Source: Chitinophagaceae bacterium (GTDB lineage: Bacteria > Bacteroidota > Bacteroidia > Chitinophagales > Chitinophagaceae). Taken from it: a stretch of DNA of 32,109 nt. Below the pieces are notes generated by a model. The model did not search any database. It was not told where the DNA came from and saw only the letters and a program-made list of their open reading frames with translations. This document shows positions 2,407 through 23,286 of this stretch, piece after piece. The translations under genes were made by a program, and so were the position numbers. How positions within the stretch are numbered: the first letter of the stretch is position 1; every line of letters begins with the position of its first letter. The stretch is taken from positions 1 to 32,109 of the forward strand of contig CANGSR010000008.1 of the NCBI GenBank assembly GCA_947456055.1. Reading direction: 5' to 3'.

Positions 2407-3318
2407 TTAGTTTTCTAACGCTTCTAATGTGGTATCAAAGTTCTTTTTATGCTTATTAATGTCTTTTCTAATTTTTTTACATAAATTTTCGTCAAATGTT
2501 AGTCCATCTTGTCCGTATTGAAAATACTGCCTTCCTGTTTCATCCTTTACTAAAACAGAATGGGCAAATTTGTTTCTGATTGAATTTATTTCTTCTTTAT
2601 ATTCATTGCTATAATCATTTAATTTCAAGTATTCTAAAATTACACCCAGTGTCTTGATTTTATACTCAGCACTAAATACAAAATTATCCTTTGTTAATTT
2701 GGTGAATTTTGAATCTCGCTTCCATTCATCTACCAATTTAATTTTACGATTATAGAGTTCAATTATTTCATCATAAATGCCTAACGCCATAGTATTAAAG
2801 TCAATTTTGTCATTCTTCAAAGCCAAATTAATTATTTCCAACATTTGCATATCTAATGAACTAGTTTCTTGCATAATTAAACCTCTCATAGCCACAATAT
2901 GCTGAAACTTTTTTATTGTCAATCCAATTAGCTTTTTTAGATGTATAATCAGAACTTCTTGATGGTTTCCTTGGGTTTTTAACCCTCTAGTTTCAAGAAA
3001 GGTTATCCTATCTTTTTTAATGGAGTTCAAATCCTCAGCCTGAGCAGTATAAAACATTATCTCAGTAAGTATTGATTTATCTCTAACCGTATCTACTATT
3101 TCATTACCATTAATTCTGTTTAAATGGTAATCTGTTAAAATTAAATCAAATGAGTCATCCAACTCTTTGAAAAACTCTTCTTCTTTAGAAACAGTAATAA
3201 TAATTGGATTAAATCCTTCGTCTTTCAAAAAAGCATCAATTTCTTCAATATATTGATCTTCAACAAAAAGTTCTTCAATCTTATCATCCAGCCAAAGTAT
3301 TTTGTAATCTAATTTCAT
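2407..3318 (-). CDS. Receiver-domain protein with C-terminal HEPN-like helical domain
   Basis: The 303-aa protein starts with a CheY-like receiver: acidic pair D11/D12 in LWLDDK, phospho-acceptor D63 in LILTDYHL, T91 in MFYTAQ, and K114 about where the conserved Lys should be. From about residue 135 it is all-helical and charged, with no recognisable DNA-binding output domain. At residues 248-253 it has RNKFAH, the R-N-x3-H form of the HEPN RNase motif R-x4-6-H. I infer a response regulator whose output is a HEPN domain, perhaps a ribonuclease. It starts 2 bases after the kinase-like gene, as the last gene of the cassette. Alternative: the helical domain only dimerises and the motif is structural. 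The base composition is much more AT-rich than trmB. Confidence 0.72.
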   Translation of the reverse strand: MKLDYKILWLDDKIEELFVEDQYIEEIDAFLKDEGFNPIIITVSKEEEFFKELDDSFDLILTDYHLNRINGNEIVDTVRDKSILTEIMFYTAQAEDLNSIKKDRITFLETRGLKTQGNHQEVLIIHLKKLIGLTIKKFQHIVAMRGLIMQETSSLDMQMLEIINLALKNDKIDFNTMALGIYDEIIELYNRKIKLVDEWKRDSKFTKLTKDNFVFSAEYKIKTLGVILEYLKLNDYSNEYKEEINSIRNKFAHSVLVKDETGRQYFQYGQDGLTFDENLCKKIRKDINKHKKNFDTTLEALEN

Positions 3319-3320
3319 AA

Positions 3321-5639
3321 TTATATGGTGATTTTAAAAGTGGTTCCCGTATCTTTAGTAGATTCAACATCAATAGTTCCTTTTAATTTGCTTACTATAT
3401 CCTTTACTTGAAATAAGCCTATACCTGATCCATCAGTTGTAGTAAATCCAAGATCGAAAATCTTTGATATATTTTCCTTAGGAATACCAGTTTTTGCATT
3501 ATCACTAATTTCAAGCACTAAATTATTTTTTAATTTAGAAAATGTAAATGAAATTTTTTCTGCTCCAGCTTTTTCTGCATTAGATATGAAATTATCTATG
3601 AGTGTTGTAATTTCCAATGGTCTAATTGCCCTAACAAATCGGTTATTGCCTCGATTTATAATATTTATTCCTAGAGTGGTATCAATAATTTTATCGTTAG
3701 ATATGTAAATTTCATTGATGTATTCCGTAATGAATTCTACGATATCGATTTCAATTTCACTCGCTACCAAATTAAAATTTGCTTTGGTTATGAAATTTGC
3801 AATTGAATGAATCTTTGTTGTCTCCATTGAAATCACTGTAATGTACTTGCGAATTTGCTCATTCAATTGCATAGGATCTAACTCTCTTAACAATAACTTT
3901 AAGTTTCTTGTAATTCTACTGGATGAATGAAATATTTGGTGTTGTAAACCAATAATTCTTTCCTTATCTGTACCTAGTAAAGCACCCTTCCAAGACCCTT
4001 TTTTTATTTCTTTTTCTAGTTCAATTGCTAATGATTCGTTTTTAATTAGTTCTCTAAATGCGTCATCCTCTGCTTCATTTTTAATTTTCTCAAGATTAGA
4101 TATTTTATTTTGAGCTTTATCAATTACACTTAAAATCTCATGCTTTTCAAAATTATCTTGTTGAATTTTCTGCCTAATTTCTGATAGAATTCCTCTAGCT
4201 GAATTTTCTCCTTTTGATTCTAAAATTTGAAATAAATCAGGTGCATAATCAATCGATATAATATTTTTGGTTTTAGAAAGATTCATTACGATATTTTGCA
4301 ATGCTAGAACTTTGCTATTTTCATCAAGATTTATGTAATCATCTTCGGATAAATCTTTCCCCCAATCTGAAACTTCAATAATATACTTCTCTAATCGTTT
4401 AAGTGTAGTGTAAAACCATTCATATAAAGCATTGTATGTTTCTGTCTTTATTAAACCATCTCCTCTGCTTGAAGTTTCTCTTAATTCATCATTTGAGCCA
4501 TTAATATTAATATATCCAATAACTTCACGAGTACCTAGAAATCTAGTACGTCCTTGGGCTTTTCTATTATCCATTTTCAGTGGATCTTCTCCCCTTTCTC
4601 CATACGGATATATCCTCAATCCATTTTTGTAAATGAATATATGACCATAATCTACAGGAGGCACACCCATTCTTCTCGTAAATGTTGATTTTGAGGAGTG
4701 ATTCAAATAATAAATTGTAAAATCGACGCTTCCTAAAATTGGTAATGGATTTTCCTCAACTATACAATATACCAATTTACCTCCTTCCTGAAGCTCAGTT
4801 TTAACTATTGCCTTTTGAGTGTCTGATACTTGCGAAATAATCTTAGTTGTTTTAATATCTAAAGCTTCAAAAATTAAATTCTCAACTTCCCCATTAACAA
4901 CATCCTTATATATTGATTCTCGAGTAAGAGACTTCTTTAATCCTTCCTCTTTTACTTTATTATCCTCAGGTAATTCAGAATCGACTATTAAGCTAATTTT
5001 GAATACATCGTCACTATCCTTAGTATTAGGGTTTACTAGCTTTGCCAAGGCACTTTTCAATTTCAGCAACTTCTCTCTATCCCATGTACTTCTCAAGTTA
5101 GTTATCTCTAATACTGTTCCGTGATTTAAACGGTAATTGCTGTATTCAATTGTATCATGAATTACGCTTATATCTATAAATTCCTCTGTAATATCAGATT
5201 CGAATTTTTCCCAATCAGTGTATAATACTTCCGTTTTTGCATTTAATTCATTTTTCTTAGTCTCTAAATAAAGGTAGGAACCAAGTCTGTCACATGAAAA
5301 TCGTCCAATTCCTTTAGCACCGGCATATGCTCTTTTGGTGTTTATTTTATCTCTATAAGTATAATTATCCTCCTCTGTACCCTCTTTTTTAGCTGAATAT
5401 GCAAGAAACAGCCATTTATTTACTAAATCTTCATAATTCATGCCTTTGCCATTGTCACGAATAATTATTTTTTGTTTTTCAGTTTTGAGATTTTCAAATA
5501 TAATTTCAACTTTAGTTGAATGGGCATCATATGAATTTTTCACGAGTTCAAATACAGCAATGAAGTCATCATTTATTAGATCTCTTCCAATAATGTTCTT
5601 CAATGCAGAACTAATTTTAAATTGCAGTTTTGACTCCAT
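3321..5639 (-). CDS. Double-GHKL ATPase: MORC/Hsp90-type N-terminal domain plus histidine-kinase-type C-terminal domain
   Basis: The 772-aa cytosolic protein has no signal peptide or membrane segment. The N-terminal GHKL domain shows the N box FELVKNSYDA (N35), DNGKGM (62-67) and GAKGIGRFS (107-115), the arrangement of MutL/Hsp90/MORC ATPases. A long middle region follows, with a charged, probably coiled-coil stretch at about 480-560 and HQIFHSSSRITRNL, a possible H-box. The C-terminal 100 residues are a second, histidine-kinase-type GHKL domain: ISNAEKAG (685-692), SDNAKTGIP (712-720), GSGIGLF (737-743). The start codon overlaps the methyltransferase stop as TAATG. The next gene encodes a receiver, which supports phosphotransfer. 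The input signal is unknown. The gene is AT-rich. Confidence 0.85.
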   Translation of the reverse strand: MESKLQFKISSALKNIIGRDLINDDFIAVFELVKNSYDAHSTKVEIIFENLKTEKQKIIIRDNGKGMNYEDLVNKWLFLAYSAKKEGTEEDNYTYRDKINTKRAYAGAKGIGRFSCDRLGSYLYLETKKNELNAKTEVLYTDWEKFESDITEEFIDISVIHDTIEYSNYRLNHGTVLEITNLRSTWDREKLLKLKSALAKLVNPNTKDSDDVFKISLIVDSELPEDNKVKEEGLKKSLTRESIYKDVVNGEVENLIFEALDIKTTKIISQVSDTQKAIVKTELQEGGKLVYCIVEENPLPILGSVDFTIYYLNHSSKSTFTRRMGVPPVDYGHIFIYKNGLRIYPYGERGEDPLKMDNRKAQGRTRFLGTREVIGYININGSNDELRETSSRGDGLIKTETYNALYEWFYTTLKRLEKYIIEVSDWGKDLSEDDYINLDENSKVLALQNIVMNLSKTKNIISIDYAPDLFQILESKGENSARGILSEIRQKIQQDNFEKHEILSVIDKAQNKISNLEKIKNEAEDDAFRELIKNESLAIELEKEIKKGSWKGALLGTDKERIIGLQHQIFHSSSRITRNLKLLLRELDPMQLNEQIRKYITVISMETTKIHSIANFITKANFNLVASEIEIDIVEFITEYINEIYISNDKIIDTTLGINIINRGNNRFVRAIRPLEITTLIDNFISNAEKAGAEKISFTFSKLKNNLVLEISDNAKTGIPKENISKIFDLGFTTTDGSGIGLFQVKDIVSKLKGTIDVESTKDTGTTFKITI

Positions 5640-6856
5640 TATACTAAATATTTTTTTAGAACCAGTCCGCTTTGTTCGCCAAAAAGAGGAGGAATGGCGT
5701 TTCCTATTTGTGTATATCTAGGTACTTCCTTAGTACGCATTTTACCACCTGATGTATACTTGCCTTTAAAATGGTAAGAATCGGGGAAAGATTGAATACG
5801 TGCATATTCCCTTACAGTCATTATTCTAGGTTCTATATAATGTATATAATCATCGGGCAAGCTTGTAATTGTTGGGCTTTTTTCATTTTCGTCTAACGGT
5901 ATAATTGTATGCTTTTTTATACCAAACTTCGTTCTTACTTCTTTATCTATTTCTTTATTTTTCTTACAGTTGCCTAGTATGTATTGAAATTTGCCAATTA
6001 TATCGGGTCTATGTTGTGGAAATCTATGGCTATCAACTATCGGGCTGTCAATACCTTTCCTCATTAATTTTTGGTAGGCACTTGTGGGGGTTGAGTATAT
6101 ACCTGCATTAAAACGCTTCGTATCTGGTGATTGAATTTCCCCATTGCTTTTCAATAAATCGGATATTGCATCACCTAGGTTAGTATTTTGGTCAATATTC
6201 CTTTCTGCAAGAAATTGTGTTTTATTAATTTTTAATTGTTTAAAAAACCATTCAGCAGTTTCTATTGATGAATTAGGAACACTTTTTCTTATTCCAACAA
6301 GAATAAATCTGACCCTTTTCTGAGGAATGCCATAGTCTCCAAAATTAACCAACTGACCATGTACATGATATCCCAACCGATCGAGCATTTCAGTTACATA
6401 TTGTGAATATGCAACACCTTTCGTCTTGTTTTTATCAAATTTCAATGTAAAGCCCCTAACATTTTCAAAGAAAATAATTTTAGGCTGTACGTACATAATG
6501 AACTTCAAATATGATTTAATGAGGCTATTTCTTAAATCGCTTTCACGCCTCTTTCCTGCTGTAGAGAAACCTTGACAAGGAGGGCCACCAGTTACTAATT
6601 CTACCTTACCTATTAGTTTTAGAAGGTCAGTTTTATGTTCTAACAATAATTGATTGATATCCCAAGCACGTTTTTGCAACCAAGATTCAGGCCATAAAAA
6701 ATGCTTTTTTTCAGTTATTAAATTATGTTCTAGAGTTTTAAACGCATCAGCATTTTTTTCTACTGCAAATAAACCCTGCCAACCAGCTTGATGAAGGCCT
6801 AATGATAATCCTCCACAACCAGCAAAAAGGTCAATATAAGTAGGTTTACTTTCCAT
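5639..6856 (-). CDS. DNA (cytosine-5-)-methyltransferase
   Basis: The 405-aa C5 methyltransferase has all main motifs in order: motif I DLFAGCGGLSLG (9-20), catalytic PPCQGFS with Cys94, ENVRGF (131-136), QKRVRFILVG, a target-recognition region, and RYTQIGNAIPP near the end. The ORF track opens it at a TTG at 6889, but that lies at or before the start point expected from the TATATTTG box at 6893-6900. The ATG at 6856 (MESKPTYIDLFAG) is the better start. No restriction endonuclease lies next to it; the downstream partners are the double-GHKL protein, joined by a TAATG overlap, and the receiver-HEPN protein. The target sequence cannot be predicted. It is either an orphan methylase or the modification arm of an unusual defence cassette. 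Confidence 0.95.
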   Translation of the reverse strand: MESKPTYIDLFAGCGGLSLGLHQAGWQGLFAVEKNADAFKTLEHNLITEKKHFLWPESWLQKRAWDINQLLLEHKTDLLKLIGKVELVTGGPPCQGFSTAGKRRESDLRNSLIKSYLKFIMYVQPKIIFFENVRGFTLKFDKNKTKGVAYSQYVTEMLDRLGYHVHGQLVNFGDYGIPQKRVRFILVGIRKSVPNSSIETAEWFFKQLKINKTQFLAERNIDQNTNLGDAISDLLKSNGEIQSPDTKRFNAGIYSTPTSAYQKLMRKGIDSPIVDSHRFPQHRPDIIGKFQYILGNCKKNKEIDKEVRTKFGIKKHTIIPLDENEKSPTITSLPDDYIHYIEPRIMTVREYARIQSFPDSYHFKGKYTSGGKMRTKEVPRYTQIGNAIPPLFGEQSGLVLKKYLV

Positions 6857-6892
6857 GATGATTCGCAATTTAGGAGAATTAGCAAACAATTA

Positions 6893-6900: not shown

Positions 6901-7074
6901 TATAATATTCTATGTGTATATCGCTGACTGTTAATTTTATAAACTTATTTATCATTACATTTTGTTAATGACAACTTTAATAGCTGGCTTAACTAATGAA
7001 TTCAAACACAAAATTAAGCACCCTATAAATATTACCAGCTACCCCCAAAAAATATTTCTCAAAATATTTGATAA

Positions 7075-7090
7075 AACTATAAAAATAGTT
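7075..7090. promoter_or_regulatory. Operator 1, predicted BlaI binding site
   Basis: AACTA-TAAAAA-TAGTT is a dyad with 5-bp arms; the full inverted repeat AAAACTAT/ATAGTTTT has 8-bp arms. It sits immediately upstream of the blaI -7 box and shares its exact spacing with operator 2. Confidence 0.6.
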
Positions 7091-7091
7091 T

Positions 7092-7099
7092 TACCTTTG
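7092..7099 (+). promoter_or_regulatory. Bacteroidota -7 box of the blaI operon
   Basis: TACCTTTG is a perfect TAnnTTTG lying between the two operator dyads. A TTG at about 7068-7070 could be the -33 element. The start point would be near 7106, leaving a leader of about 14 bases, so a repressor on either dyad would block RNA polymerase. Confidence 0.6.
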
Positions 7100-7115
7100 A
7101 ACTACAAAGATAGTT
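7100..7115. promoter_or_regulatory. Operator 2, predicted BlaI binding site
   Basis: AACTA-CAAAGA-TAGTT repeats the operator 1 dyad with the same 6-base spacer and ends 4 bases before the blaI ATG. Its centre lies 25 bp from that of operator 1. Confidence 0.6.
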
Positions 7116-7517: not shown

Positions 7518-8981
7518 ATGAATGCGTATATCCTCTTTCTCTCAAAGGCCATCCTAAGTTCAGGATTGTTTTACCTATGGTATTTATTGGTTTTGAAAAA
7601 CCAGAAGATGCACGTATTCAACCGTCATTTCCTAAGGGCGGCAGTGGTGGCAAGTCTTTTATTACCAACTACCAATATTAGCTACAACCTGGTAACCAAA
7701 TCGCAAAACCTCGTTGCAATAAAAATGCTACAGGTTATTAGCGGTGGGGAAGAAGCCGATGTGGTAGTCTCATCTGGTACACAATCATGGTTCACTATGG
7801 AACATGTACTTTTTAGCCTTTATGCCTTTGTAATCGGCATACTATTGGTTTGGAGCATAATACCCATAGTAAGGCTGTTCAAAATAAAATCAGGCAGCAG
7901 GGTAAGTAAATATCCTGGTTACAACCTTATCCATGTCAATATTCCATCTGCCCCATTTTCATTCCTCAATAATTTGTATTGGAATGAAAGTACCGACCCT
8001 GAAACCGACCCTGGTAAGCAAATGATGGTTCATGAACTGTGTCACATCAAACAAAAACACTCTTATGACAACCTGCTGATGCAACTGGTATTGGTGGTTT
8101 TCTGGATTAATCCTTTTTATTGGCTTATGAGAAAGGAGCTCACAATGGTTCACGAATTTATAGCCGATGAAGCTGCAATAGCACCTAATGATACTGATAC
8201 TTTCGCACGAATGTTGCTGCATGCCCGCTACGCTAATCTTTTCCCAACAATTGCCCATTCATTTTTTCACTCACCCATTAAAAGACGATTAACTATGCTT
8301 ACAAAATCGCCCAACACTTCATTTGCTGGTCTTCGCCGTATTCTGGCACTCCCATTATATCTGGGTATTGCAACCTTATGCTCGTTCAAAATCACCAACA
8401 CCCCCCAAACCCGAGCCACTGAACGCACCCTTATAGTGCTGGATGCAGGCCATGGAGGGAAGGATAATGGTGCATACAATAATGATGGCTTATTGGAAAA
8501 AAATGTAGCCATGCAAATAACAAATAATCTTAACCGTCTGGCTAAAGAATACAATATTGACGTGGTACTCACAAGGGATGGAGATAACTATCCAACTCTG
8601 GCAGAAAGGGTGAAAATGGCCAATGAAGCTCATGCCGCACTCTTTGTTTCTATACATACTAATAGTAAGCTTCCCGGCCGTGACTCAGTGAGTGATTATG
8701 AAATATATGTTTCTAAAGGAAATAAGCAATTACCACAAAGCTTATTACTTGGTTCTGCAATAGCTGGTAGACTTGCAACCCAAGGCCTCACGTTGCCAAT
8801 TAAAGAAAAGAGAATACATGTACTCAATGAAAATGATAATCCTGCTGTATTAATTGAATGTGGAGATATACGCAATCCATCACAAATGGCGATGCTCAAA
8901 GACCCTGCGAAGTCGGAGCAATACTGCCGCAATATATTGAGTGGAATTGTAGATTTTGTGAATAGCAAGGACAAGAAGTAA
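7518..8981 (+). CDS. M56 (BlaR1-type) membrane metallopeptidase fused to N-acetylmuramoyl-L-alanine amidase
   Basis: The 487-aa protein has two parts. Residues 1 to about 295 form an M56 integral-membrane protease with several hydrophobic segments (about 8-25, 35-50, 98-118, 187-205, 285-300), zinc motif HELCH (172-176) and a likely third ligand in MVHEFIADE. After the last hydrophobic stretch comes an Amidase_3 domain (about 303-487): LDAGHGGKDNGA (H313), EKN (E328), SIHTN (H381) and PAVLIECGD (E448), covering the expected zinc ligands and catalytic Glu. By topology the amidase should face the periplasm. In classical BlaR1 this place is taken by a penicillin-binding sensor. I infer that the amidase binds or cuts peptidoglycan as the sensing step for BlaI release. 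Confidence 0.9.
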   Translation: MNAYILFLSKAILSSGLFYLWYLLVLKNQKMHVFNRHFLRAAVVASLLLPTTNISYNLVTKSQNLVAIKMLQVISGGEEADVVVSSGTQSWFTMEHVLFSLYAFVIGILLVWSIIPIVRLFKIKSGSRVSKYPGYNLIHVNIPSAPFSFLNNLYWNESTDPETDPGKQMMVHELCHIKQKHSYDNLLMQLVLVVFWINPFYWLMRKELTMVHEFIADEAAIAPNDTDTFARMLLHARYANLFPTIAHSFFHSPIKRRLTMLTKSPNTSFAGLRRILALPLYLGIATLCSFKITNTPQTRATERTLIVLDAGHGGKDNGAYNNDGLLEKNVAMQITNNLNRLAKEYNIDVVLTRDGDNYPTLAERVKMANEAHAALFVSIHTNSKLPGRDSVSDYEIYVSKGNKQLPQSLLLGSAIAGRLATQGLTLPIKEKRIHVLNENDNPAVLIECGDIRNPSQMAMLKDPAKSEQYCRNILSGIVDFVNSKDKK

Positions 8982-9010
8982 TTGGAATAAATCTGATACT
9001 GGTAAATTCC

Positions 9011-9058
9011 GGCTGTGATGATTAGGCGATGTCTTTTTCATCACAGCCGATTTTTTTT
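9011..9058 (+). terminator. Intrinsic terminator after the blaI operon
   Basis: GGCTGTGATGA and TCATCACAGCC form a perfect 11-bp stem around a 16-base loop, followed by GA and a run of eight T. It lies 30 bases after the M56-amidase stop codon. Confidence 0.85.
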
Positions 9059-9200: not shown

Positions 9201-11102
9201 ATGAAAAAACTGTTACTCCTTTTTATTGCTGCAATTTGCATGTCTGTTGCCACTTTTGCTATTGCACCAATTGTGGGTCCAACCACAGTATGCCAACGTT
9301 CCTACGCTTATCTATCCGATTCTACGCCGGGTGGTACATGGAGTAGTAGTGATCCTGCTATTGCCACTATAAACCCAACTGATGGAACATTATTTGGGGT
9401 AGCAAGTGGAAGTTGTGTTATTACATATACAGTAGGTGGTTCTTTTATTACCGAAATATTTACGGTTGGTCCTTTTGTTCCTTGGATAACGGGTCCTTCG
9501 GGAATTTGCGTAGGAGTAACCTCAGCGGTTTCAGATGCCGATCCGGGTGGCACATGGAGCGTTGATTTTCCGTCAATTCTTACTATAAATGCTACGACGG
9601 GAGTTATTGTGGGTGTTTCCCCTGGTGTTGCTACAGTCTATTATACACTGGGAACAGGTTGTTCGGTTGATGGGAGTATCACGGTTAATTCAACGGGAGT
9701 GGGACCGATAGTTGGCCCATCCTTGCTATGCATTGGGGCTTCTGATTCTATGTTAGATTCATATCCCGGAGGAACATGGGAGAGTTCTAATACTGCGGTG
9801 GCTACTGTTTCAAGTACAGGTTTGGTAACTGGAGTCTCCTCAGGCACTACATTAATTAGTTATACTGGTGTTGGGATTTGCGGAGCAGAAACCGTGACTA
9901 AAGTATTAAGTGTGGGCACACCCATTTCATTGGCACCTATTTCGTATACTACATTAAATGTTGCCATCGGTGCTATGGTTATATATACTGACGCTACTTT
10001 AGGGGGTACATGGGCAAGCAGTACCCCGGCGGTTGCAACTGTTAATCCATCAACCGGTGTTGTTACCGGTATTGCATCAGGTACTACCACATTAACCTAT
10101 ACTGTGCCAAGTTGTATCGGCACTGTTTTTTGCACTCAGGTTATCAGTGTTTCGGTACTTAATGGTATTTCAGGTAATATAGTTTTTTCTAGTGGTGCTT
10201 ATTCAGGTCCACTCACTGTATGGTTGATCCATTACAACTCTGGTACACATAATTTAGTAGCCGTTGACTCTATTTATACTACGGTTTCGGGCATAAGCAG
10301 CTATTATTATCACTTTACTGGCATGGCTTCAGATTCTTTTAGGGTTAAGGCAGCAGGCTACGATTCCACAGCTTCCTATACCGGATATGTGCCTACCTAC
10401 CACACAAGCAGTTATTTCTGGAATACTGCTGATGTTATCAACCATATTAGCGGAACAGCCGATGTAAATAAAGACATCGATATGGCATGGGGTACCGTAC
10501 CTGCCGGAACAGGGTTTATTGCTGGGGACGTTACTACTGGTGCCAATCGTGGTTCTTCTACAGGTTTACCTGCGGTTCATCTAAGGATATACCTGATAAA
10601 TTCAACTACCGGTAGCCTCATCCAACAGGTCTTCACTGATGCTGCCGGTCATTATACTTTCCCGTCTATCCCGGTTGGTCAGACTTATACCGTTCACCCT
10701 GAGGCTATTAATTATACTACAACACCATATACGGGTATTATGCTCACTTCAGCAAACCCCTCTATGTCGGCTGCAAATTTCATTCAGCATACAGTTTCAA
10801 AAACGATTACACCAGGTGCAGAATCTGTACCCGGTCTAAATAATATAGTTGCTTCCATTACGGCCTATCCTAACCCTACAAATGGCAAACTAAACCTTAG
10901 TTGGCAGGAATTAACAACCGAAAAGGCAACCATTACTATTACAGATATTACTGGGAAGGAGCTAATTCAATCATCAATAACCCTGACCAAAGGTTCTGGT
11001 AATCAACAATTTGATTTATCGGGTCTTACAAATGGCCTTTATTTAATGAATTTTAAGTCTGAAAATATTAATTACAACAACAAAATACAGGTGCAACATT
11101 AA
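9201..11102 (+). CDS. Secreted protein with four Big_2-like Ig repeats and a T9SS sorting domain
   Basis: The 633-aa protein begins with a signal peptide (MKKLLLLFIAAICMSVATFA). Four bacterial Ig-like (Big_2 type) repeats of about 70-85 residues follow, each with GGTW at the start, an ATINP/ATV strand and a G.(V/I)SG or SPG turn. From about residue 330 there are two beta-rich stretches resembling carboxypeptidase-regulatory or Cna-B folds (FIAGDVTTG...GHYTFPSIPVGQTYTV). The end, ITAYPNPTNGKLNLSW...LTNGLYLMNF, is a type A T9SS C-terminal domain. The protein is therefore exported through the outer membrane and probably attached to the surface, perhaps for adhesion. It is flanked by two terminators and so is transcribed alone. 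Confidence 0.88.
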   Translation: MKKLLLLFIAAICMSVATFAIAPIVGPTTVCQRSYAYLSDSTPGGTWSSSDPAIATINPTDGTLFGVASGSCVITYTVGGSFITEIFTVGPFVPWITGPSGICVGVTSAVSDADPGGTWSVDFPSILTINATTGVIVGVSPGVATVYYTLGTGCSVDGSITVNSTGVGPIVGPSLLCIGASDSMLDSYPGGTWESSNTAVATVSSTGLVTGVSSGTTLISYTGVGICGAETVTKVLSVGTPISLAPISYTTLNVAIGAMVIYTDATLGGTWASSTPAVATVNPSTGVVTGIASGTTTLTYTVPSCIGTVFCTQVISVSVLNGISGNIVFSSGAYSGPLTVWLIHYNSGTHNLVAVDSIYTTVSGISSYYYHFTGMASDSFRVKAAGYDSTASYTGYVPTYHTSSYFWNTADVINHISGTADVNKDIDMAWGTVPAGTGFIAGDVTTGANRGSSTGLPAVHLRIYLINSTTGSLIQQVFTDAAGHYTFPSIPVGQTYTVHPEAINYTTTPYTGIMLTSANPSMSAANFIQHTVSKTITPGAESVPGLNNIVASITAYPNPTNGKLNLSWQELTTEKATITITDITGKELIQSSITLTKGSGNQQFDLSGLTNGLYLMNFKSENINYNNKIQVQH

Positions 11103-13776: not shown

Positions 13777-15075
13777 TTAAAAATTCGAAATAAAGTTTTG
13801 CGCAGCAAAAACAGTCTCATCGATATCCTCAAATGATAATGCCTTACTGATAAACCAGGTTTCAAAAGCTGATGGTGGCAAATAAAAACCATCGGTAAGC
13901 ATGCCATGGAAGAACTTATTGAAAAGTGCATTATTGGCAGCGGCAGCAGATGCGAAATTATTCACCGGCTTTTCGCTAAAATGTACGCTAATCATAGAGC
14001 CAAAACGGTTGATAACAAATGGGGAACTACCCGTGCTTAATGCTTTCTCCAATCCTGCTTGCAGGTAAGCGGTTTTATCTTCAATCTCTTTATAGATAGA
14101 TGGATTGTCCTTTAAAGTTCTCAGCATGGTATACCCGGCTATCATGGCTATTGGGTTACCACTCAGTGTGCCTGCCTGGTAAACATTACCCAATGGGGCT
14201 ATATGCTCCATAATGGCCCTTTTACCACCAAAAGCACCAACAGGCAATCCACCACCTATCACCTTACCATAGGTTACCAGGTCGGCATCAATACCTAGTC
14301 TTTCCTGTGCACCACCAGCAGCAAGCCTGAAGCCTGTCATCACCTCGTCGAAAATAAATACAATATCTTCCTTATCGCAAATATCCCTTAGCCCTTGCAG
14401 GAAGCCGGGTTCTGGTATAATACAACCCATATTACCAGCAACAGGTTCTATGATGATAGCTGCTATTTCTCCCGGATATTGTTTTACCAGTTGCTCTACA
14501 GCCTCAAGGTCATTATATGGGGCAGTAAGGGTATCAATTGATACACCCGCTGTAACACCAGGCACTGTTTGTATATTAAAAGTAGCCAGCCCGCTACCTG
14601 CCTTTACTAGAAAAGCATCAGCATGCCCATGGTAACAACCTTCAAATTTGATGAATTTGTTCCTGCCGGTATAGCCACGGGCTAGCCTTAGTGCACTCAT
14701 ACATGCCTCAGTACCACTGCTCACCATACGCACCATGTCCACATTTGGAGCCATGCTACATATAAGTTCAGCCATTTCTATTTCCAGCTCTGTAGGTGCA
14801 CCAAAAGAAGTAGAGTGGGCTGCTTTTTCGCAAATAGCATCCACTACAGGTTCATAAGCATGGCCTAAAATCATAGGGCCCCATGAGTTGATATAATCTA
14901 CATACCTGTTGCCATCAGCGTCAAACATGTATGCGCCTTTAGCCCGCTCCATAAATAATGGTGTGCCACCCACGCTCCTGAAAGCCCTTACCGGTGAGTT
15001 TACCCCGCCTGGTATTGTTTTCTGGGCCCTTTCGAATAATTCCTGGCTTCTTGTCGTTATTTTCATCTGTTTCAA
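13777..15075 (-). CDS. hemL: Glutamate-1-semialdehyde 2,1-aminomutase
   Basis: The 432-aa PLP enzyme converts glutamate-1-semialdehyde to 5-aminolevulinate, the second step of the C5 pathway after hem[29 protein letters not shown] and [17 protein letters not shown] are diagnostic; K271 in the last should form the Schiff base. The length is normal. The start [14 protein letters not shown] has a second Met four residues in that would serve equally well. It lies on the same strand as the other hem genes but is separated from hemB by a Uma2 gene and a plus-strand small gene, so it has its own promoter. Confidence 0.97.
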
Positions 15076-15171
15076 TTTTATAATTGAGCTACAAAATATT
15101 TTTTCTTAGTGGTTCTGATGATAAATCCTGAACTTTGTTATAACTTTATTTGAATATTATCTGTACTATTT

Positions 15172-15408
15172 ATGATTCTTATTGCCATTTTGTTTCCCGG
15201 TTTGTCATTTTTGCTCAGGGGCAAATTGATTTCTGCGGTGTTTGCTATCATCCTACAGGTGATTGCGCTTTTTACTTTAGTCTTAGTTGGCCTGGGTTTC
15301 TACATTTGGTTATTTACAGCTATCTGGGCTGTGAGCTCTTATACACAATCCCGTGCCGACAGAAGAAACCGTGAACTTATCCGTGCCATAAGGCAGGGTA
15401 GAAGGTAA
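15172..15408 (+). CDS. Small two-helix membrane protein, Pmp3/YqaE-like
   Basis: The 78-aa protein has two or three hydrophobic stretches (ILIAILFPGLSFLL, LISAVFAIILQVIALFTLV, GFYIWLFTAIWAV) and a strongly basic tail (ADRRNRELIRAIRQGRR). The start and the LFPGLSFLL turn resemble the Pmp3/YqaE family of small stress-related membrane proteins, but the match is loose. An overlapping ORF at 15150 in another frame is a shadow. It is the only plus-strand gene between hemL and hemB. Confidence 0.6.
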   Translation: MILIAILFPGLSFLLRGKLISAVFAIILQVIALFTLVLVGLGFYIWLFTAIWAVSSYTQSRADRRNRELIRAIRQGRR

Positions 15409-15444
15409 TAACCTAAAGAACTTTGTCATAAATAAATGCCCGAA

Positions 15445-16041
15445 TTACGCTAAAGACGTTTTCCTATAAACCTCATTCAATGGCAAGTCGAATCCGATTG
15501 AATCAATAACCAAAGAAGAGTTACCATCTTCCGCATAAATTGGCTCGTCCCAGGTAGTTTCATTCTTTCTCCTGTTTATTTGAATAAATTTCCTGGTAGA
15601 ATCCACCAAAATATATTCCTTCAAAGAGGGTATTTGTTTATAGTAGTGAAATTTGAACGCCATATCATAACCCTTGGTTGAAGAACTCATTACTTCAATG
15701 ATTGCTGTTGGGTTGGTTAATGTATCAAATCCATTTTCTTTACGCTGTAGCTCTTCACATAAAATTGTCAGGTCTGGATACATGAAAGAATCAAAATCAG
15801 GTGTTGTGACCCTTAGGTCAGCCACCAAAATCTCACACTCTTTACCTTCCAAATAATTGCCAATCTTTCTCATCAGGTTGGCAACTATAAAGTTATGGTC
15901 GAAAGAAGCACCCGCCATATCATAAATTCTTCCTTCGAAGTATTCATGTTTTTCTAGACTTCTTACCTCTATTTCGAGATAATCATCAGGTGTTATATAA
16001 CTAACTGCTGGAAATGCCATAAATGCAGATTTATGATACAA
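15445..16041 (-). CDS. Uma2-family (DUF820) restriction-endonuclease-fold protein
   Basis: The 198-aa protein has the Uma2 pattern: YLEIEVRSLEKHEYFEGRIYDMAGAS, DHNFIVANL, YPDLTILCEE, PTAIIEVMSSSTKGYDMAFKFHYYKQIPSLKEYILVDS. The acidic residues PD and IIEV with the following K/Q fit a PD-(D/E)XK nuclease fold. The function of the family is unproven; members are often found in many copies in mobile-rich genomes. A start at Met8 (MAFPAVSYIT) is equally possible. It lies 8 bases downstream of hemB on the same strand and may be co-transcribed. Confidence 0.85.
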   Translation of the reverse strand: MYHKSAFMAFPAVSYITPDDYLEIEVRSLEKHEYFEGRIYDMAGASFDHNFIVANLMRKIGNYLEGKECEILVADLRVTTPDFDSFMYPDLTILCEELQRKENGFDTLTNPTAIIEVMSSSTKGYDMAFKFHYYKQIPSLKEYILVDSTRKFIQINRRKNETTWDEPIYAEDGNSSLVIDSIGFDLPLNEVYRKTSLA

Positions 16042-16049
16042 ATATAAGA

Positions 16050-17027
16050 CTATCCGTTTATCAATTTGGCGGCATCCTTGGCATAATAGGTAGCAATAAG
16101 GTCGGCACCGGCACGCTTTATGCTGCTTAGTGACTCAATAATGGCCTTATTTTCATCCAGCCAACCCATTTTTACGGCAGCTTTTATCATGGCATATTCA
16201 CCGCTAACATGGTAGGCACTTACCGGCACATCCACACTATCCCTCACCTCACGGATAATATCCAGATAAGCCATAGCAGGTTTTACCATTACTATATCAG
16301 CACCTTCTTCCACATCCATCAGGGTTTCCTTTATTGCTTCACGACGGTTGGCGTAGTCCATCTGGTAGGTTTTCTTATCGCCAAATCCTGGTGCACTATC
16401 CAGCGCATCCCTGAAGGGACCATAAAAGCAACTTGCATACTTGGCACTATAGGCCATTATGCCTGTGCGGGTCATGTTGTTTTGTTCCAATGCTTCCCTT
16501 ATGGCTAGTATGCGGCCATCCATCATGTCGCTGGGAGCCACAATATCTGCACCTGCCTGGGCATGGCTCACACTCATTTGCGCCAATACTTCCACAGTAG
16601 GGTCGTTCACTATTTCATTATCTTCTACTATTCCGTCATGGCCATAGATGCTAAATGGGTCTAAAGCCACGTCAGTCATCACAATCATACCAGGGCAGGC
16701 ACTTTTAATAGCCCTTATGCTCCTTTGCATCAATCCGTTAGGATTTAATGCTTCTGTACCCTTATTGTCTTTCAGTTCATCTTTGCACTTAATGAAAAGC
16801 AATACACTTTTAATTCCCAAACCCCACAATTCTTTCACTTCATTCAGGGTATTATCAATACTCATGCGGTAATAGCCCTGCATTGATGATATTTCTTCCC
16901 TTACCCCGCTTCCTTCGGTAATAAAAAGTGGTGCTATAAAATCTGCCGGCCTTAAGATAGTTTCGGCTACCATAGCCCTTATTGCCGGTGACTGGCGTAG
17001 TATGCGGTTTCTTCTGATTAAATGCAT
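16050..17027 (-). CDS. hemB: Porphobilinogen synthase (delta-aminolevulinate dehydratase)
   Basis: The 325-aa enzyme condenses two 5-aminolevulinate molecules to porphobilinogen. Two active-site lysines are visible: K196 in AYSAKYASCFYGPF and K249 in IVMVKPAMAY. The metal site reads DVALDPFSIYGHDG, the aspartate type without cysteines, so a magnesium-dependent rather than zinc-dependent enzyme is expected from family knowledge. It has its own -7 box about 50 bases upstream of the ATG. Confidence 0.97.
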   Translation of the reverse strand: MHLIRRNRILRQSPAIRAMVAETILRPADFIAPLFITEGSGVREEISSMQGYYRMSIDNTLNEVKELWGLGIKSVLLFIKCKDELKDNKGTEALNPNGLMQRSIRAIKSACPGMIVMTDVALDPFSIYGHDGIVEDNEIVNDPTVEVLAQMSVSHAQAGADIVAPSDMMDGRILAIREALEQNNMTRTGIMAYSAKYASCFYGPFRDALDSAPGFGDKKTYQMDYANRREAIKETLMDVEEGADIVMVKPAMAYLDIIREVRDSVDVPVSAYHVSGEYAMIKAAVKMGWLDENKAIIESLSSIKRAGADLIATYYAKDAAKLING

Positions 17028-17076
17028 AGTCTGTAATTTGTGATGAAGGAGACAATTATTGACCCATTTCGTGACG

Positions 17077-17084
17077 CAAAACTA
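17077..17084 (-). promoter_or_regulatory. Bacteroidota -7 box of hemB
   Basis: The minus strand reads TAGTTTTG, matching TAnnTTTG. The leader to the hemB ATG at 17027 would be about 40 bases. Confidence 0.45.
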
Positions 17085-17208
17085 AGGTTATTATAAAACC
17101 CAAAACCTAATTGTCGTCATTTTTTCCATATTAAAATTATATAACACGAAAGAGTGGTGGGATCCTGCCAAATCGGGACGCAATAGAGCAATACACTAAA
17201 CCTATTTA

Positions 17209-18183
17209 TTACCTATTCTTGAACCTGTCATCGGTTAGTGTATTCAAAAAAGCTTCAAGGTCTATTTTATCCTGGGTTGAGAGATTTAATGGGGCAGTTA
17301 AAACTGAATCTGTATTTATGGGGTGAGGAACTACCTTACGAGGGTCATTGTAATATTCTATTACCTCTTTCAAGGTTTTGAACATCCCATTGTGCATATA
17401 AGGGGCAGTAACGGCCACATTCCTCAGTCCGGGCACTTTGAACTTGCCAATATCTGCTTTGTTTTTGGAAATCAAGTATCTACCGGAGTCATTCAGTTTT
17501 CCCCCATCAAACAAGCCTACATTCCTGAATTCATCACCGGTAAAATCTGGGGTAAAATGGCACTCAAAGCACCGTGCTTTCTCCAGAAATAATGTCCTAC
17601 CCCTGAGTGCTGATTCACCCATCAATATTGAATCATCGTTTGCCATATACCTGTCGTACGTAGTTTTTGATGTTTCCAGGGTTCGTTCGTAGGAGGCAAT
17701 AGCAGATTTGAGGTTGTTTTCATTAGGTTCTTCCTTAAAGACAGATTTAAACCAGGCTATATATTCTTTGTTTTGCTGCAACCTTTTTACTGCCTTGGGT
17801 AATGGTAGGTTCATCTCCACCTCGTTCTCAATTGGGAATTTTACTTGTTCCTCAAGGGTAGCAGCCCTGCCATCGTAAAACAAATAAGGGCGGTCGGCAA
17901 TATTGGCACAGGATGGTGCATTTCGGCCACCAGTTCTGTTCATAACACCTTTACTAAAAGCAACAGTATCTGCAAACCCATATTCAGGAATATGACATGA
18001 TGCGCAACTTTTGGTACTATCAGAAGACAATATTTTATCAAAAAACAATACCTCGCCCAGCTGCGCCTTGGTCTTTGGTTCTCCCGAAAAAGAATATTGT
18101 ATACTAGTTTTCTTCTGTTTGCTAAATGCAAAACAAACTACCAACATCAACAATAAAAACAGGGTAACGAGGGATTTCTTCAT
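17209..18183 (-). CDS. Di-heme cytochrome c peroxidase (CcpA/MauG family)
   Basis: The 324-aa protein has an N-terminal signal sequence (KKSLVTLFLLLMLVVCFAFS) and two heme-c binding motifs, CASCH and CFECH, about 155 residues apart as in the bacterial di-heme peroxidase family. LGEVLFFDKILSSDSTKSCASCH, NAPSCANIADRPYLFYDGRAATLEEQ and LRNVAVTAPYMHNGMFKTLKEV are family hallmarks. It would reduce hydrogen peroxide in the periplasm or oxidise a protein partner. It consumes heme and lies among heme-biosynthesis genes, which may mean shared regulation, but it has its own promoter. Confidence 0.93.
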   Translation of the reverse strand: MKKSLVTLFLLLMLVVCFAFSKQKKTSIQYSFSGEPKTKAQLGEVLFFDKILSSDSTKSCASCHIPEYGFADTVAFSKGVMNRTGGRNAPSCANIADRPYLFYDGRAATLEEQVKFPIENEVEMNLPLPKAVKRLQQNKEYIAWFKSVFKEEPNENNLKSAIASYERTLETSKTTYDRYMANDDSILMGESALRGRTLFLEKARCFECHFTPDFTGDEFRNVGLFDGGKLNDSGRYLISKNKADIGKFKVPGLRNVAVTAPYMHNGMFKTLKEVIEYYNDPRKVVPHPINTDSVLTAPLNLSTQDKIDLEAFLNTLTDDRFKNR

Positions 18184-18202
18184 GAAAACAAAAACGAGAT
18201 AG

Positions 18203-18210
18203 CAAAATTA
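18203..18210 (-). promoter_or_regulatory. Bacteroidota -7 box of the cytochrome c peroxidase gene
   Basis: The minus strand reads TAATTTTG, matching TAnnTTTG, 19 bases before the ATG at 18183. Confidence 0.4.
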
Positions 18211-18335
18211 GCACTTTCGGGACTTTTAGGCTAATTCTTGCTCCTAACAAAAGTCAGTTTGGCAAAACTAATTAACGAATATTCTCCACTTTCAAAATGA
18301 AATAATTCACTACCTTTATTCTTCAAATACTTTTT

Positions 18336-18770
18336 ATGGGAGTAAACAAAGTTATTGAAAGCAATACTCTGAAAAATAAATTTGTCTTATTTACGGGTAA
18401 TAATAATTTTAACCTTGTGGCAAATGCCCGTAAAGGTATAGGATCCGATGTGTTCTACGACTTTGCTGCCTTGATCAAAATGTCTGAAAAGAATCTTGCG
18501 CAAATTATTCATCTATCTACACGCACAATTAGTAATTATAAAGCGAACAAAAAATCGCTTGAACCTTTACAAAGTGAGCATTTGCTTAAGCTGATTTCCT
18601 TATATCAATTAGGAGAAGAACTTTTTGGCAACCTAGACGAATTTAATTATTGGCTACAAAAGCCGTTTTGGAATAGACCTGAAAAACCAATAGAGTGGCT
18701 AATAACACCGGGGGGCGTAGATTTGGTAAGGGACGAATTGATGAGATTGGCATATGGCGATGCTTTATAA
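18336..18770 (+). CDS. Xre/MbcA/ParS-family antitoxin (DUF2384)
   Basis: The 144-aa protein has an Xre-like helix-turn-helix region (FAALIKMSEKNLAQIIHLSTRTISNYKANKKSLEPLQSE) and the DUF2384 toxin-binding tail (LFGNLDEFNYWLQKPFWNRPEKPIEWLITPGGVDLVRDELMRLAYG). The length and order match antitoxins of RES/Xre systems. It precedes the RES toxin gene on the same strand. It should bind its own promoter and block the toxin's active site with the C-terminal segment, as known for the family. Confidence 0.92.
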   Translation: MGVNKVIESNTLKNKFVLFTGNNNFNLVANARKGIGSDVFYDFAALIKMSEKNLAQIIHLSTRTISNYKANKKSLEPLQSEHLLKLISLYQLGEELFGNLDEFNYWLQKPFWNRPEKPIEWLITPGGVDLVRDELMRLAYGDAL

Positions 18771-18881
18771 ATTTTACCCATGCTTCTTGGGAAAATCAAA
18801 TTTCTTTTCAAATAAGGTAACGCTACTTTTTCATCCAATCATTTTCATCGTACTAATTTCGATTCCAATTAAGAAGTAAAC

Positions 18882-19352
18882 ATGTTCGTATACAAAATTG
18901 CAAATAAAAATTACGCAAGTAAATTTGTTGCATCCGGAATTGACGGTCGATGGTCATCAGGAGGAAGATTGGTTATTTATACGGCCGAATCAATAGCTTT
19001 ATCTTTTTTGGAGAGTATGATAAGGCGGCATGGAATAGGTTTTAATAATGATTTTAAGACAATTCTTATTCATATCCCAGACGATTTACAAATTGAAAAA
19101 GTTGAGCTGCATGAATTGCCCAAAGGCTGGAATAACTATGGTGATTATGCTATTAGCCAATCCTTTGGTAATAAATGGTGCGATGATTTAAGGTCACCAC
19201 TTTTAAAAGTACCGTCAGTATTATTGCCAGATTCATTCAATTATGTAATCAATACTGTACATACTGATTTTTCAAAAATAGAAGTAGCCGGAATCACTGA
19301 CTTAACGCCAGACCCTAGAATCGAAGACATTTTGAAAAACTATAAAAAATAG
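18882..19352 (+). CDS. RES-domain toxin (NAD+-depleting family)
   Basis: The 156-aa RES-domain protein has GRWSSGGRLVIYTAESIALSFLE near the start, covering the conserved Arg, Tyr and Glu, and LLKVPSVLLPDSFNYVIN, with the conserved Ser, later. Studied RES toxins degrade NAD+. It follows the antitoxin but is separated by 111 bases, unlike the usual few-base spacing; an in-frame stop at 18870 rules out a much longer reading frame. A separate promoter or a coupling defect is possible. It converges on hemF, whose stop is 4 bases away. Confidence 0.92.
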   Translation: MFVYKIANKNYASKFVASGIDGRWSSGGRLVIYTAESIALSFLESMIRRHGIGFNNDFKTILIHIPDDLQIEKVELHELPKGWNNYGDYAISQSFGNKWCDDLRSPLLKVPSVLLPDSFNYVINTVHTDFSKIEVAGITDLTPDPRIEDILKNYKK

Positions 19353-19356
19353 CCTC

Positions 19357-20265
19357 CTACACCCACTCCCTCGGCTGGTAATATTTCATCATAGCCTCTT
19401 CGGGACTGCCGGGTTCGGGTTGGTAATTATACTCCCAGCGGGCTCTTGGTGGCAGGCTCATTAATATACTTTCTGTCCTGCCATTAGTCTTTAGCCCGAA
19501 AAGTGTACCCCTGTCATGAATCAGGTTGAACTCCACATAGCGTCCCCTTCTTATTTCCTGCCATTCTACCTGGCGTTCACTATAGGGTATATCCTTCCTT
19601 TTTTCAACTATGGGCAGGTATGCGGGTAAAAACGCATCCCCATTAGCCCGCTGGAAATTCATTAATAATGCAGCATCCCCAGCATCTTTTGGACGCAGGT
19701 AATCATAAAACACACCACCTATACCCCGCATCTCATTGCCACGGTGTTTGTTTACAAAATACTCGTCACAATACTGTTTATATTTCGGGTGCTTATCTAC
19801 TCCAAAGGGCTCCATAGCTGCTTTCAGTACACCATGAAAATGTATCGCATCCTCCTCAAACAGGTAATATGGGGTAAGGTCAGACCCACCACCAAACCAG
19901 CTATCCAGTATCTTGCCCTCCTTATCATACAGCTCAAAATAGCGCCAATTGGCATGGACCGTTGGCACATACGGATTTAGCGGGTGTATCACCAGCGACA
20001 AGCCACAAGCGAAAAAATTGCTTTCAGGTACATTGAAAGCCTTCTGCATAGCATCGGGCAATACCCCATGCACGGCACTGGTATTCACGCCGCCTTTTTC
20101 AAAAACTTTCCCACCACTTATCACACGGGTCTTACCACCCCCGCCTTCAGGCCTCACCCATTTATCCTCCACAAATTTCGCCTTGCCATCAATCCCTTCC
20201 AACCCAGCACAAATCCTGTCTTGCAGTGCATATATATATCCCGTGAATTGCTCCCTTATAGTCAT
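19357..20265 (-). CDS. hemF: Oxygen-dependent coproporphyrinogen-III oxidase
   Basis: The 302-aa enzyme decarboxylates coproporphyrinogen III to protoporphyrinogen IX using O2. NPYVPTVHANWRYFE, WFGGGSDLTPYYLFEEDAIHFH, NKHRGNEMRGIGGVFYDYL and RGRYVEFNLIHDRGTLFGL are family signatures. The ORF track begins at a GTG at 20307, which falls in the loop of a terminator hairpin; the ATG at 20265 (MTIREQFTGYIYALQD) gives the usual N-terminus and length. It is cut off from hemE by that terminator and a repeat region, so it is transcribed separately. The use of HemF shows that heme can be made aerobically. Confidence 0.96.
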   Translation of the reverse strand: MTIREQFTGYIYALQDRICAGLEGIDGKAKFVEDKWVRPEGGGGKTRVISGGKVFEKGGVNTSAVHGVLPDAMQKAFNVPESNFFACGLSLVIHPLNPYVPTVHANWRYFELYDKEGKILDSWFGGGSDLTPYYLFEEDAIHFHGVLKAAMEPFGVDKHPKYKQYCDEYFVNKHRGNEMRGIGGVFYDYLRPKDAGDAALLMNFQRANGDAFLPAYLPIVEKRKDIPYSERQVEWQEIRRGRYVEFNLIHDRGTLFGLKTNGRTESILMSLPPRARWEYNYQPEPGSPEEAMMKYYQPREWV

Positions 20266-20285
20266 AATGAGTTTGCCATATTTGC

Positions 20286-20323
20286 CTAAAAAATAGAGGC
20301 GAACCACCGATTCGCCTCTATTT
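20286..20323 (-). terminator. Intrinsic terminator between hemE and hemF
   Basis: AAATAGAGGCGAA and TTCGCCTCTATTT form a perfect 13-bp stem with a 7-base loop. On the minus strand the stem is followed by a T run. It would end the hemA-hemC-hemD-hemE transcript before hemF. Confidence 0.8.
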
Positions 20324-20437
20324 GTAAAAATAAGTAATGATTGTTATTCAATGAATATCGAACTATTATTTTAATCTTCTTTTAGTAATCTTGATACAGA
20401 TTCATTATACTCTCCAAAATCCGACTATCTAAGATAT

Positions 20438-20512
20438 ACTAAGTACCCTCCAAAATCTGTCTTTCTACTCTACAATATCTACTAAGTACCCACCAAAATC
20501 CGTCTTTCTACT
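20438..20512. repeat. Pair of 32-bp direct repeats, period 43
   Basis: ACTAAGTACCC-t/a-CCAAAATC-t/c-GTCTTTCTACT occurs at 20438-20469 and 20481-20512 with two mismatches. A third, partial copy (CTCCAAAATCCG) lies near 20411. The second copy runs into the heptad array. Confidence 0.75.
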
Positions 20513-20560
20513 TTCTACTTTCTACTCTCTACTTTCTACTTTCTACTCTCTATTTTCTAC
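20505..20560. repeat. Eight-unit heptanucleotide array TTTCTAC at the hemE stop codon
   Basis: The units are three TTTCTAC, one TCTCTAC, two TTTCTAC, one TCTCTAT and one TTTCTAC, without gaps. On the minus strand the unit is GTAGAAA, and the TAG of the unit at the hemE end is the hemE stop codon (20557-20559). Confidence 0.9.
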
Positions 20561-21588
20561 TTAGAATAATCTTTAACCGCCTCCACAAAAGCCTTTGCAT
20601 GATCTACAGGCACATTAGGCATAATGCCGTGGCCCAGATTGGCGATATAGTTTTTCACACCAAAAGCATCAATCATTTCCTTAACCTCTTTTTTAATTTG
20701 CGGTATAGGAGCTAAAAGGTGAGATGGGTCAAAATTGCCCTGTATGGTTATTTTATTACTTGTCATTTCACGGGCCATCTTGGGGGTAATCGTCCAGTCG
20801 ATGCCTATACCTGCGGCACTACTGTTGGCAATATCAGGCAAGGCATACCAGCTACCCTTAGGGAATAATATCACAGGCGCATCCTTGCTTACAGCATCAG
20901 AAATCTGCAAAAGGTAAGGCAGCGCAATACTATTAAAGTCAGCAGGACTCAACATTCCACTCCAGCTATCAAACACCTGCACCAGGTCGGCACCGGCTTT
21001 TATCTGGGCTTTTAGGTATAGAATGGTAATATCAGTGATTTTCTGCAAAAGGCTATGAGCCATTTCGGGCTGGGTAAAACAAAATTGTTTCGCTTTATCG
21101 AATGATTTACTGCCCTTGCCTTCTACCATATAACAAAGCAAAGTCCATGGTGCACCTGCAAAACCTATCAATGGCACACGGCCATTCAGTTCGTTCTTGG
21201 TCATTGCCAGGGCCTTCATTACATAGTCCAGGCGGTTGTCTACATCACCGGTATTCAGTGCATCAATATCAGCCTGGGTTTTAATGACATTAGGCAAAAT
21301 TGGTCCCTTACCTTCCTCAAGCAATACAGTAAGGCCCATTGCCTGTGGTATCACCAGGATATCTGAAAATATAATGGCAGCATCCACACCTACTTGGTCC
21401 ACAGGTTGCAGGGTGATTTCGGTAGCCAGTTCAGGAGTTTCTACCCTGGTAAAGAAATCATACTTTTCCCTCAGCTTAATATAATCAGGCAAATACCTGC
21501 CCGCCTGGCGCATCATCCATACCGGTGGCCTGGATAATTCTTCGCCCCTCAATGCCCTTAAAATCAAATCATTTTGCAATGCCGCCAT
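20557..21588 (-). CDS. hemE: Uroporphyrinogen decarboxylase
   Basis: The 343-aa enzyme removes four carboxyl groups from uroporphyrinogen III to give coproporphyrinogen [20 protein letters not shown] (about 20-36) holds the conserved Arg residues and [12 protein letters not shown] the catalytic Asp76. [16 protein letters not shown] and [13 protein letters not shown] are also typical. It is the last gene of the hemA-hemC-hemD-hemE unit, 77 bases after hemD. Its TAG stop lies in the heptad array, so changes in repeat number would lie outside the coding part. Confidence 0.97.
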
Positions 21589-21626
21589 TAATCTATGTTT
21601 ATTGATTACTTAAAAATAGGATACTA

Positions 21627-21659
21627 CCTCCGGTTTGGCCTTTAGGTTTTTGCCGGAGG
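21627..21659. repeat. Inverted repeat between hemD and hemE
   Basis: CCTCCGG and CCGGAGG form a 7-bp stem around a 19-base loop. On the minus strand no T run follows directly, so it is more likely a mRNA processing or attenuating structure than a full terminator. Confidence 0.45.
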
Positions 21660-21665
21660 GCATTA

Positions 21666-22364: not shown

Positions 22365-22372
22365 TTTTAAAA

Positions 22373-23284: not shown

Positions 23285-23286
23285 AC

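Follow-up and report, generated by a model that had tools for sequence, protein, structure and literature searches.

The gene at 7518..8981 on the forward strand of the analysed DNA (hereafter the window, the whole stretch of 32,109 nucleotides from a Chitinophagaceae bacterium) encodes a BlaR1-like M56 membrane protease in which, as read from its domain order, an Amidase_3 domain stands at the sensor position and an adjacent blaI gene provides the partner. Conservation among its homologues argues that ligand engagement by this zinc amidase is the core property of the domain and that its general base is dispensable. The M56–BlaI receptor itself is already known; an amidase as its sensor appears to be new, as no description of an M56–amidase fusion and no survey of M56 sensor domains was found in the open-access literature, subscription papers aside.

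Architecture and topology of the fusion protein

The features of the operon are the following, in window positions:

7068..7099, + strand, putative Bacteroidota-type promoter read from the sequence: TTG (7068-7070) and TACCTTTG (7092-7099), with a 21-nt spacer
7075..7090, + strand, predicted BlaI operator 1, AACTATAAAAATAGTT, overlapping the promoter (motif conservation)
7100..7115, + strand, predicted BlaI operator 2, AACTACAAAGATAGTT, spaced 25 bp from operator 1, with 4 bp between it and the blaI start codon
7120..7476, + strand, blaI-type repressor gene, 118 aa (Penicillinase_R, 1.3e-27; MecI/BlaI structures 1sd6, 1okr and 1sd4)
7518..8981, + strand, M56 protease–Amidase_3 fusion, 487 aa (ORF, Pfam, AlphaFold model)
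8031..8168, + strand, HELCH (aa 172-176) and HEFIAD (aa 212-217), the catalytic motifs of M56, on the cytoplasmic side by predicted topology (alignments, including that to BlaR1 8exp)
8262..8291, + strand, segment FFxSPIKRRL (aa 249-258) at the position of the BlaR1 autocleavage loop (alignment to BlaR1; cleavage putative)
8325..8384, + strand, last transmembrane region (aa 270-289), followed by a short linker and the amidase (model helices 270-275 and 277-289, hydropathy, positive-inside reading)
8433..8948, + strand, Amidase_3 domain (aa 306-477), predicted periplasmic (Pfam, alignments, Foldseek)
8451-8453, 8496-8498 and 8655-8657, + strand, amidase zinc ligands H312, E327 and H380 (alignment)
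8856-8858, + strand, catalytic Glu E447 in PAVLIECG (aligned to known Amidase_3 structures)
9010..9058, + strand, intrinsic-terminator-like hairpin with a T run, closing the two-gene operon (-25.3 kcal/mol, z -5.7, 0 of 200 shuffles)

The fusion is a single unbroken ORF with an ATG start, separated by 41 nt from the end of blaI. Pfam recognizes Peptidase_M56 at aa 170-261 (E 9e-13) and Amidase_3 at aa 306-477 (E 1.3e-38, covering profile positions 1-172 of 174), each hit exceeding its gathering cut-off. The preliminary description had proposed an M56 protease fused to a complete Amidase_3 domain, which would occupy the place of the BlaR1 sensor beside blaI, and this proposal is borne out by the single ORF, the domain order, the blaI partner and the conserved operators at the blaI promoter. 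An assembly or frame error was excluded, full-length homologues being present in dozens of independently assembled genomes, named cultured species included. The AlphaFold model has a mean pLDDT of 86 and a pTM of 0.66, the arrangement of the two domains relative to each other being unreliable.

The protein carries the HExxH and downstream HExxAD motifs and the four-helix membrane part of the M56 peptidase family, and the residues of both motifs do not vary among the 101 aligned M56 proteins. The M56 profile matches BlaR1 by sequence (8exp, E 2.7e-4), and in Foldseek the model resembles the staphylococcal BlaR1 cryo-EM structures 8exp and 8exq (E 5e-4 to 1e-3), more weakly than it does the Amidase_3 structures. 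In the segment at the autocleavage position, F250 aligns with Phe284 of BlaR1, and F249 and F250 are each Phe in 98% of the alignment. Hydropathy and charge suggest that both termini lie outside, as in the published N-out, C-out topology of BlaR1 (PMC9834060), and the amidase would be periplasmic, a few residues past the last transmembrane helix.

The amidase domain matches Amidase_3 structures with target TM-scores of up to 0.89 (5EMI, E 5e-14 and 0.87 on target; the membrane-anchored LytH, 0.83 on target), and it is a short form without the inhibitory insertion, its nearest folds being 5EMI, 1JWQ, 4RN7 and LytH. The His-Glu-His zinc ligands and the catalytic Glu of Amidase_3 (PF01520) are all present, as had been claimed earlier, although the Glu is E447, which aligns with that of CwlV (1JWQ), Nostoc AmiC2 (5EMI) and CD2761 (4RN7), and not E448 as first given. 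The domain therefore shares its fold, zinc ligands and catalytic Glu with the enzymes of the CwlD/CwlV/LytH/AmiC type, but differs from them in being fused to an intramembrane protease, in having a repressor as partner and in that the catalytic Glu is dispensable in several lineages.

With the BlaR1–BlaI and MecR1–MecI systems of Staphylococcus (PMC9834060), the locus shares at the sequence level an adjacent BlaI-type repressor, an M56 HExxH membrane protease, a C-terminal extracytoplasmic sensor, the KRRL segment past the autocleavage position and operators at its own shared promoter. In contrast, a zinc amidase takes the place of the penicillin-binding sensor domain that resembles class D beta-lactamases, the operator is different (AACTA-N6-TAGTT), and no beta-lactamase or PBP target is visible.

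Operators, neighbouring genes and the reach of the proposed circuit

The consensus of Bacteroidota promoters is TTG/TAnnTTTG, and the two predicted operators flank a TAnnTTTG promoter element upstream of blaI; a similar element next to operators recurs in many homologues. Of 77 homologous blaI promoters, 76 have at least one AACTA-N6-TAGTT site and 73 at least two, against 0 for a reversed-pattern control, the tandem sites being spaced by 20 bp in 53 cases and by 25 bp in 18. The one exception (L069, Limnovirga) has its operator pair before an ADOP permease gene, itself upstream of blaI. The position and conservation of these sites suggest that BlaI binds them. The blaI gene adjoins the M56 gene in 77 of 82 named M56 loci, and BlaI F96 (91% conserved) lies at, or one residue off, the bond cleaved in staphylococci, the alignment being uncertain by one residue. 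A sigma-70 promoter scan gave matches below chance, its model being ill-suited to Bacteroidota, and a short-loop terminator scan missed the hairpin that closes the operon.

In the genome of the window, exact tandem operators were found only at two blaI–M56–amidase operons (control 0), in a pattern search restricted to exact sites and to an assembly from which 17% of the genome is missing. Single exact sites were at background level genome-wide (13 vs 25 in the control), and the pattern with two mismatches was at or below the control across the genome and thus uninformative on a regulon. By exact operator search, no regulon outside the two operons is visible in this genome, and the idea that proteolysis releases a blaI regulon finds no support in it; the main target of the receptor seems to be its own gene. 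Since other operators were not seen, the output could be either the amidase-protease itself as effector, or genes behind diverged BlaI sites, or other M56 substrates.

Across the family, the tandem pattern occurs in 59 of 120 genomes (controls 0), and 31 of the 32 loci read were blaI–M56 loci, with the amidase present or absent; blaI is the second gene at L191 and L209. Two tandem pairs do not stand beside blaI and mark candidate outside targets, one near a thiolase-like gene (L207:4039-4074, G029) and one between two genes for secreted proteins (L210:3968-4003, G104). At a Limnovirga-type locus (L206:1054-7150), an ADOP-type ABC permease lies between the tandem operator and blaI, with a divergent FtsE-like ATPase, an arrangement that may add a further output to the circuit.

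In 33 of 75 loci, the divergent neighbour is an ABC ATPase whose best match is FtsE (230-239 bits, cut-off 265), followed by glycosyltransferase-like genes. We regard this as weak evidence, mostly one inherited synteny block, and the FtsE-like neighbour is absent from the window. In the window, a possible restriction or defence cassette lies on the complementary strand at 2407-6889; it comprises a cytosine methyltransferase (Dcm/type II), a weak response-regulator protein and a two-ATPase GHKL protein, whose N-terminus is BbrUII/HgiDII-like and whose C-terminus resembles a histidine kinase. Elsewhere in the window, two large proteins end in sorting tails for type IX secretion (9201-11102, which also has Big_2 Ig-like repeats, and 28878-31988), and genes of haem biosynthesis lie at 13777-24606 (GlutR, porphobilinogen deaminase, HemD, URO-D, ALAD and a class-III aminotransferase), accompanied by a di-haem peroxidase.

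Distribution and origin of the fusion

Homologue searches gathered about 99 fusions, showing that the window protein is not unique. Nearly all belong to the Chitinophagaceae/Chitinophagales, with one distant fusion in another family. Many of the matches in 200 genomes from the same family cover the whole protein; the 80 named loci carry, with few exceptions, the labels Chitinophagaceae, Chitinophagales or unclassified Bacteroidota; and among the matches listed for 297 genomes across the phylum, a full-length fusion occurs outside the family once (G418). The carriers belong to a soil and freshwater branch of the Bacteroidota and include the cultured Limnovirga soli, Flavisolibacter ginsengisoli, Lacibacter luteus and Ferruginibacter paludis. 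No relatives of the fusion were found in viral contigs.

M56 proteins with other C-termini are present elsewhere in the phylum and also in some members of the family. Those of Bacteroidota with TonB_C, Plug or coiled C-termini resemble the window protein in their M56 core and in their blaI partner, and inside the family also in the tandem operator, but lack the amidase domain. Many close M56 relatives likewise have no amidase and keep BlaI and the same operators, and the amidase is therefore not the sole possible input.

The fused amidase domains cluster together, separately from the housekeeping amidases (SH-aLRT 80). In the M56 tree, members with and without amidase are interleaved, with at least 10 changes, 7 of them forced by the starred branches, so the amidase domain has been repeatedly lost or gained. 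The G418 fusion (L216, family f5) branches among non-amidase M56 proteins in the other half of the tree (support of 98) and therefore probably arose independently, although its long branch calls for caution. Conversely, at the G014 locus (L285:2187-6160) the order is a divergent ftsE, an amidase gene, the tandem operator, blaI and an M56 gene that lacks the amidase domain. This amidase, of 271 aa, has one N-terminal membrane segment and all residues intact, and it groups inside the fused set; gene order and phylogeny together identify an in-place fission, in which the amidase split off as a membrane-anchored neighbour. The possibility that the two domains are in fact separate proteins is countered by the number of fusions, by the apparently independent one and by this fission.

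Roles proposed for the amidase domain

In an alignment of 101 proteins, 99 of them fusions with about 36% identity to the window protein, the zinc ligands are invariant in 99/99. In contrast, the general base E447 is replaced in 11 of the 96 fusions that reach this position (Q in 4, A in 2, I in 2, and S, H and D), corresponding to at least nine changes on the tree. Binding, rather than cutting, thus looks indispensable, while the retention of the Glu in 85/96 indicates that hydrolysis is usually selected. The preliminary description had taken the hydrolase as the input, through cutting or muropeptide binding; hydrolysis as the input finds no support here, and the best reading of this conservation is that hydrolysis is not obligatory for the receptor. 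The catalytic Glu is lost in 2 of 67 stand-alone amidases of the same family, so that the higher loss in the fusions is suggestive, but not significant (Fisher p 0.075). The genome of the window has a second blaI–M56–amidase operon (G000:C141:5964-8076; L002, L213), whose protein has Ile for E447, yet its zinc ligands, blaI and operators are all kept. Similarly, the MAG CAIVEH has one intact copy (L061) and one Ile copy (L115). In CwlD, mutations of the zinc ligands disturb the partner complex and mutation of the catalytic Glu does not lower protein levels, a precedent for a structural role of zinc binding beyond catalysis (PMC8496864).

We propose, with belief and doubt evenly balanced, a BlaR1-like transmembrane receptor whose sensor has been exchanged for a zinc amidase and in which engagement of a peptidoglycan ligand gates BlaI cleavage. 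The fusion would lie in the inner membrane with its M56 protease towards the cytoplasm, and the short linker after the last transmembrane helix would hold the amidase near the outer face, where lipid II, nascent glycan or muropeptides set free from the wall could come within its reach. The zinc site would engage such a ligand, with slow or conditional hydrolysis probable in the window protein and none in others. This engagement may shift the amidase and the extracellular loop (in BlaR1, extracellular loop 1 enters the site of the sensor) and thereby free the M56 active site, which would cleave BlaI; the repressor would then leave the tandem operators and the operon would be induced, yielding more sensor and more amidase. 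The lack of outside targets in the operator search speaks against this model, being odd for a sensor.

The main rival, which we hold to be a good deal less probable, takes the amidase as the output: a signal perceived by the membrane part of M56, or by some other partner, would lead to BlaI cleavage and to more membrane-bound amidase trimming nascent peptidoglycan. LytH of S. aureus is a membrane-bound amidase that trims nascent peptidoglycan, and the similarity of the fold to LytH agrees with such a role, as do the restriction of tandem operators to the two operons encoding M56–amidase itself, the strong terminator closing the operon and the prevailing retention of E447. The separate amidase of G014, membrane-anchored and intact, can be read in the same way, and so can the divergent ftsE beside 33/75 loci, FtsEX being known to control amidases in other bacteria. 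However, the general base has been repeatedly lost with the zinc site intact, also in the second copy of this genome, and the G014 amidase gene lies upstream of the operators and is hence not obviously under BlaI.

It is improbable that the amidase is a passenger, one of several exchangeable C-terminal modules serving as anchor or scaffold without signalling or cutting. The interleaving on the M56 tree would suit such a module, as would the extra domains among 28 fusions (TonB_C in 12/28 and Plug in 10/28), but zinc ligands invariant at this level of identity, the grouping of fused amidases apart from stand-alone ones and the apparent convergent fusion of G418 oppose it. Finally, it is very improbable, despite the BlaI and M56 homology, that the protein regulates beta-lactam resistance as BlaR1 itself does, with a beta-lactamase or PBP gene as its target. 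This reading was rejected on sensor and operator grounds, as domain searches of the protein show an Amidase_3 domain and no penicillin-binding sensor, NCBIfam blaR1_generic scores 27 bits against a cut-off of 400, and the exact tandem operators in this genome stand only at operons of its own kind.

The receptor and the self-regulated hydrolase are compatible as a closed feedback loop. More tentatively, and with rather more doubt than belief, we envisage a receptor class in which the amidase, as a zinc-dependent peptidoglycan reader, gates a repressor-cleaving protease, and a closed, self-amplifying circuit would set the level of wall amidase. BlaR1 is the textbook antibiotic receptor that signals by proteolysis. 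The natural pairs, one copy with E447 and one with Ile in the same genome, make it testable whether a sensor enzyme must cut. If the receptor reading is true, an enzyme fold would let the BlaR1 machine sense the cell wall directly, and this across a large lineage, some of whose members are in culture.
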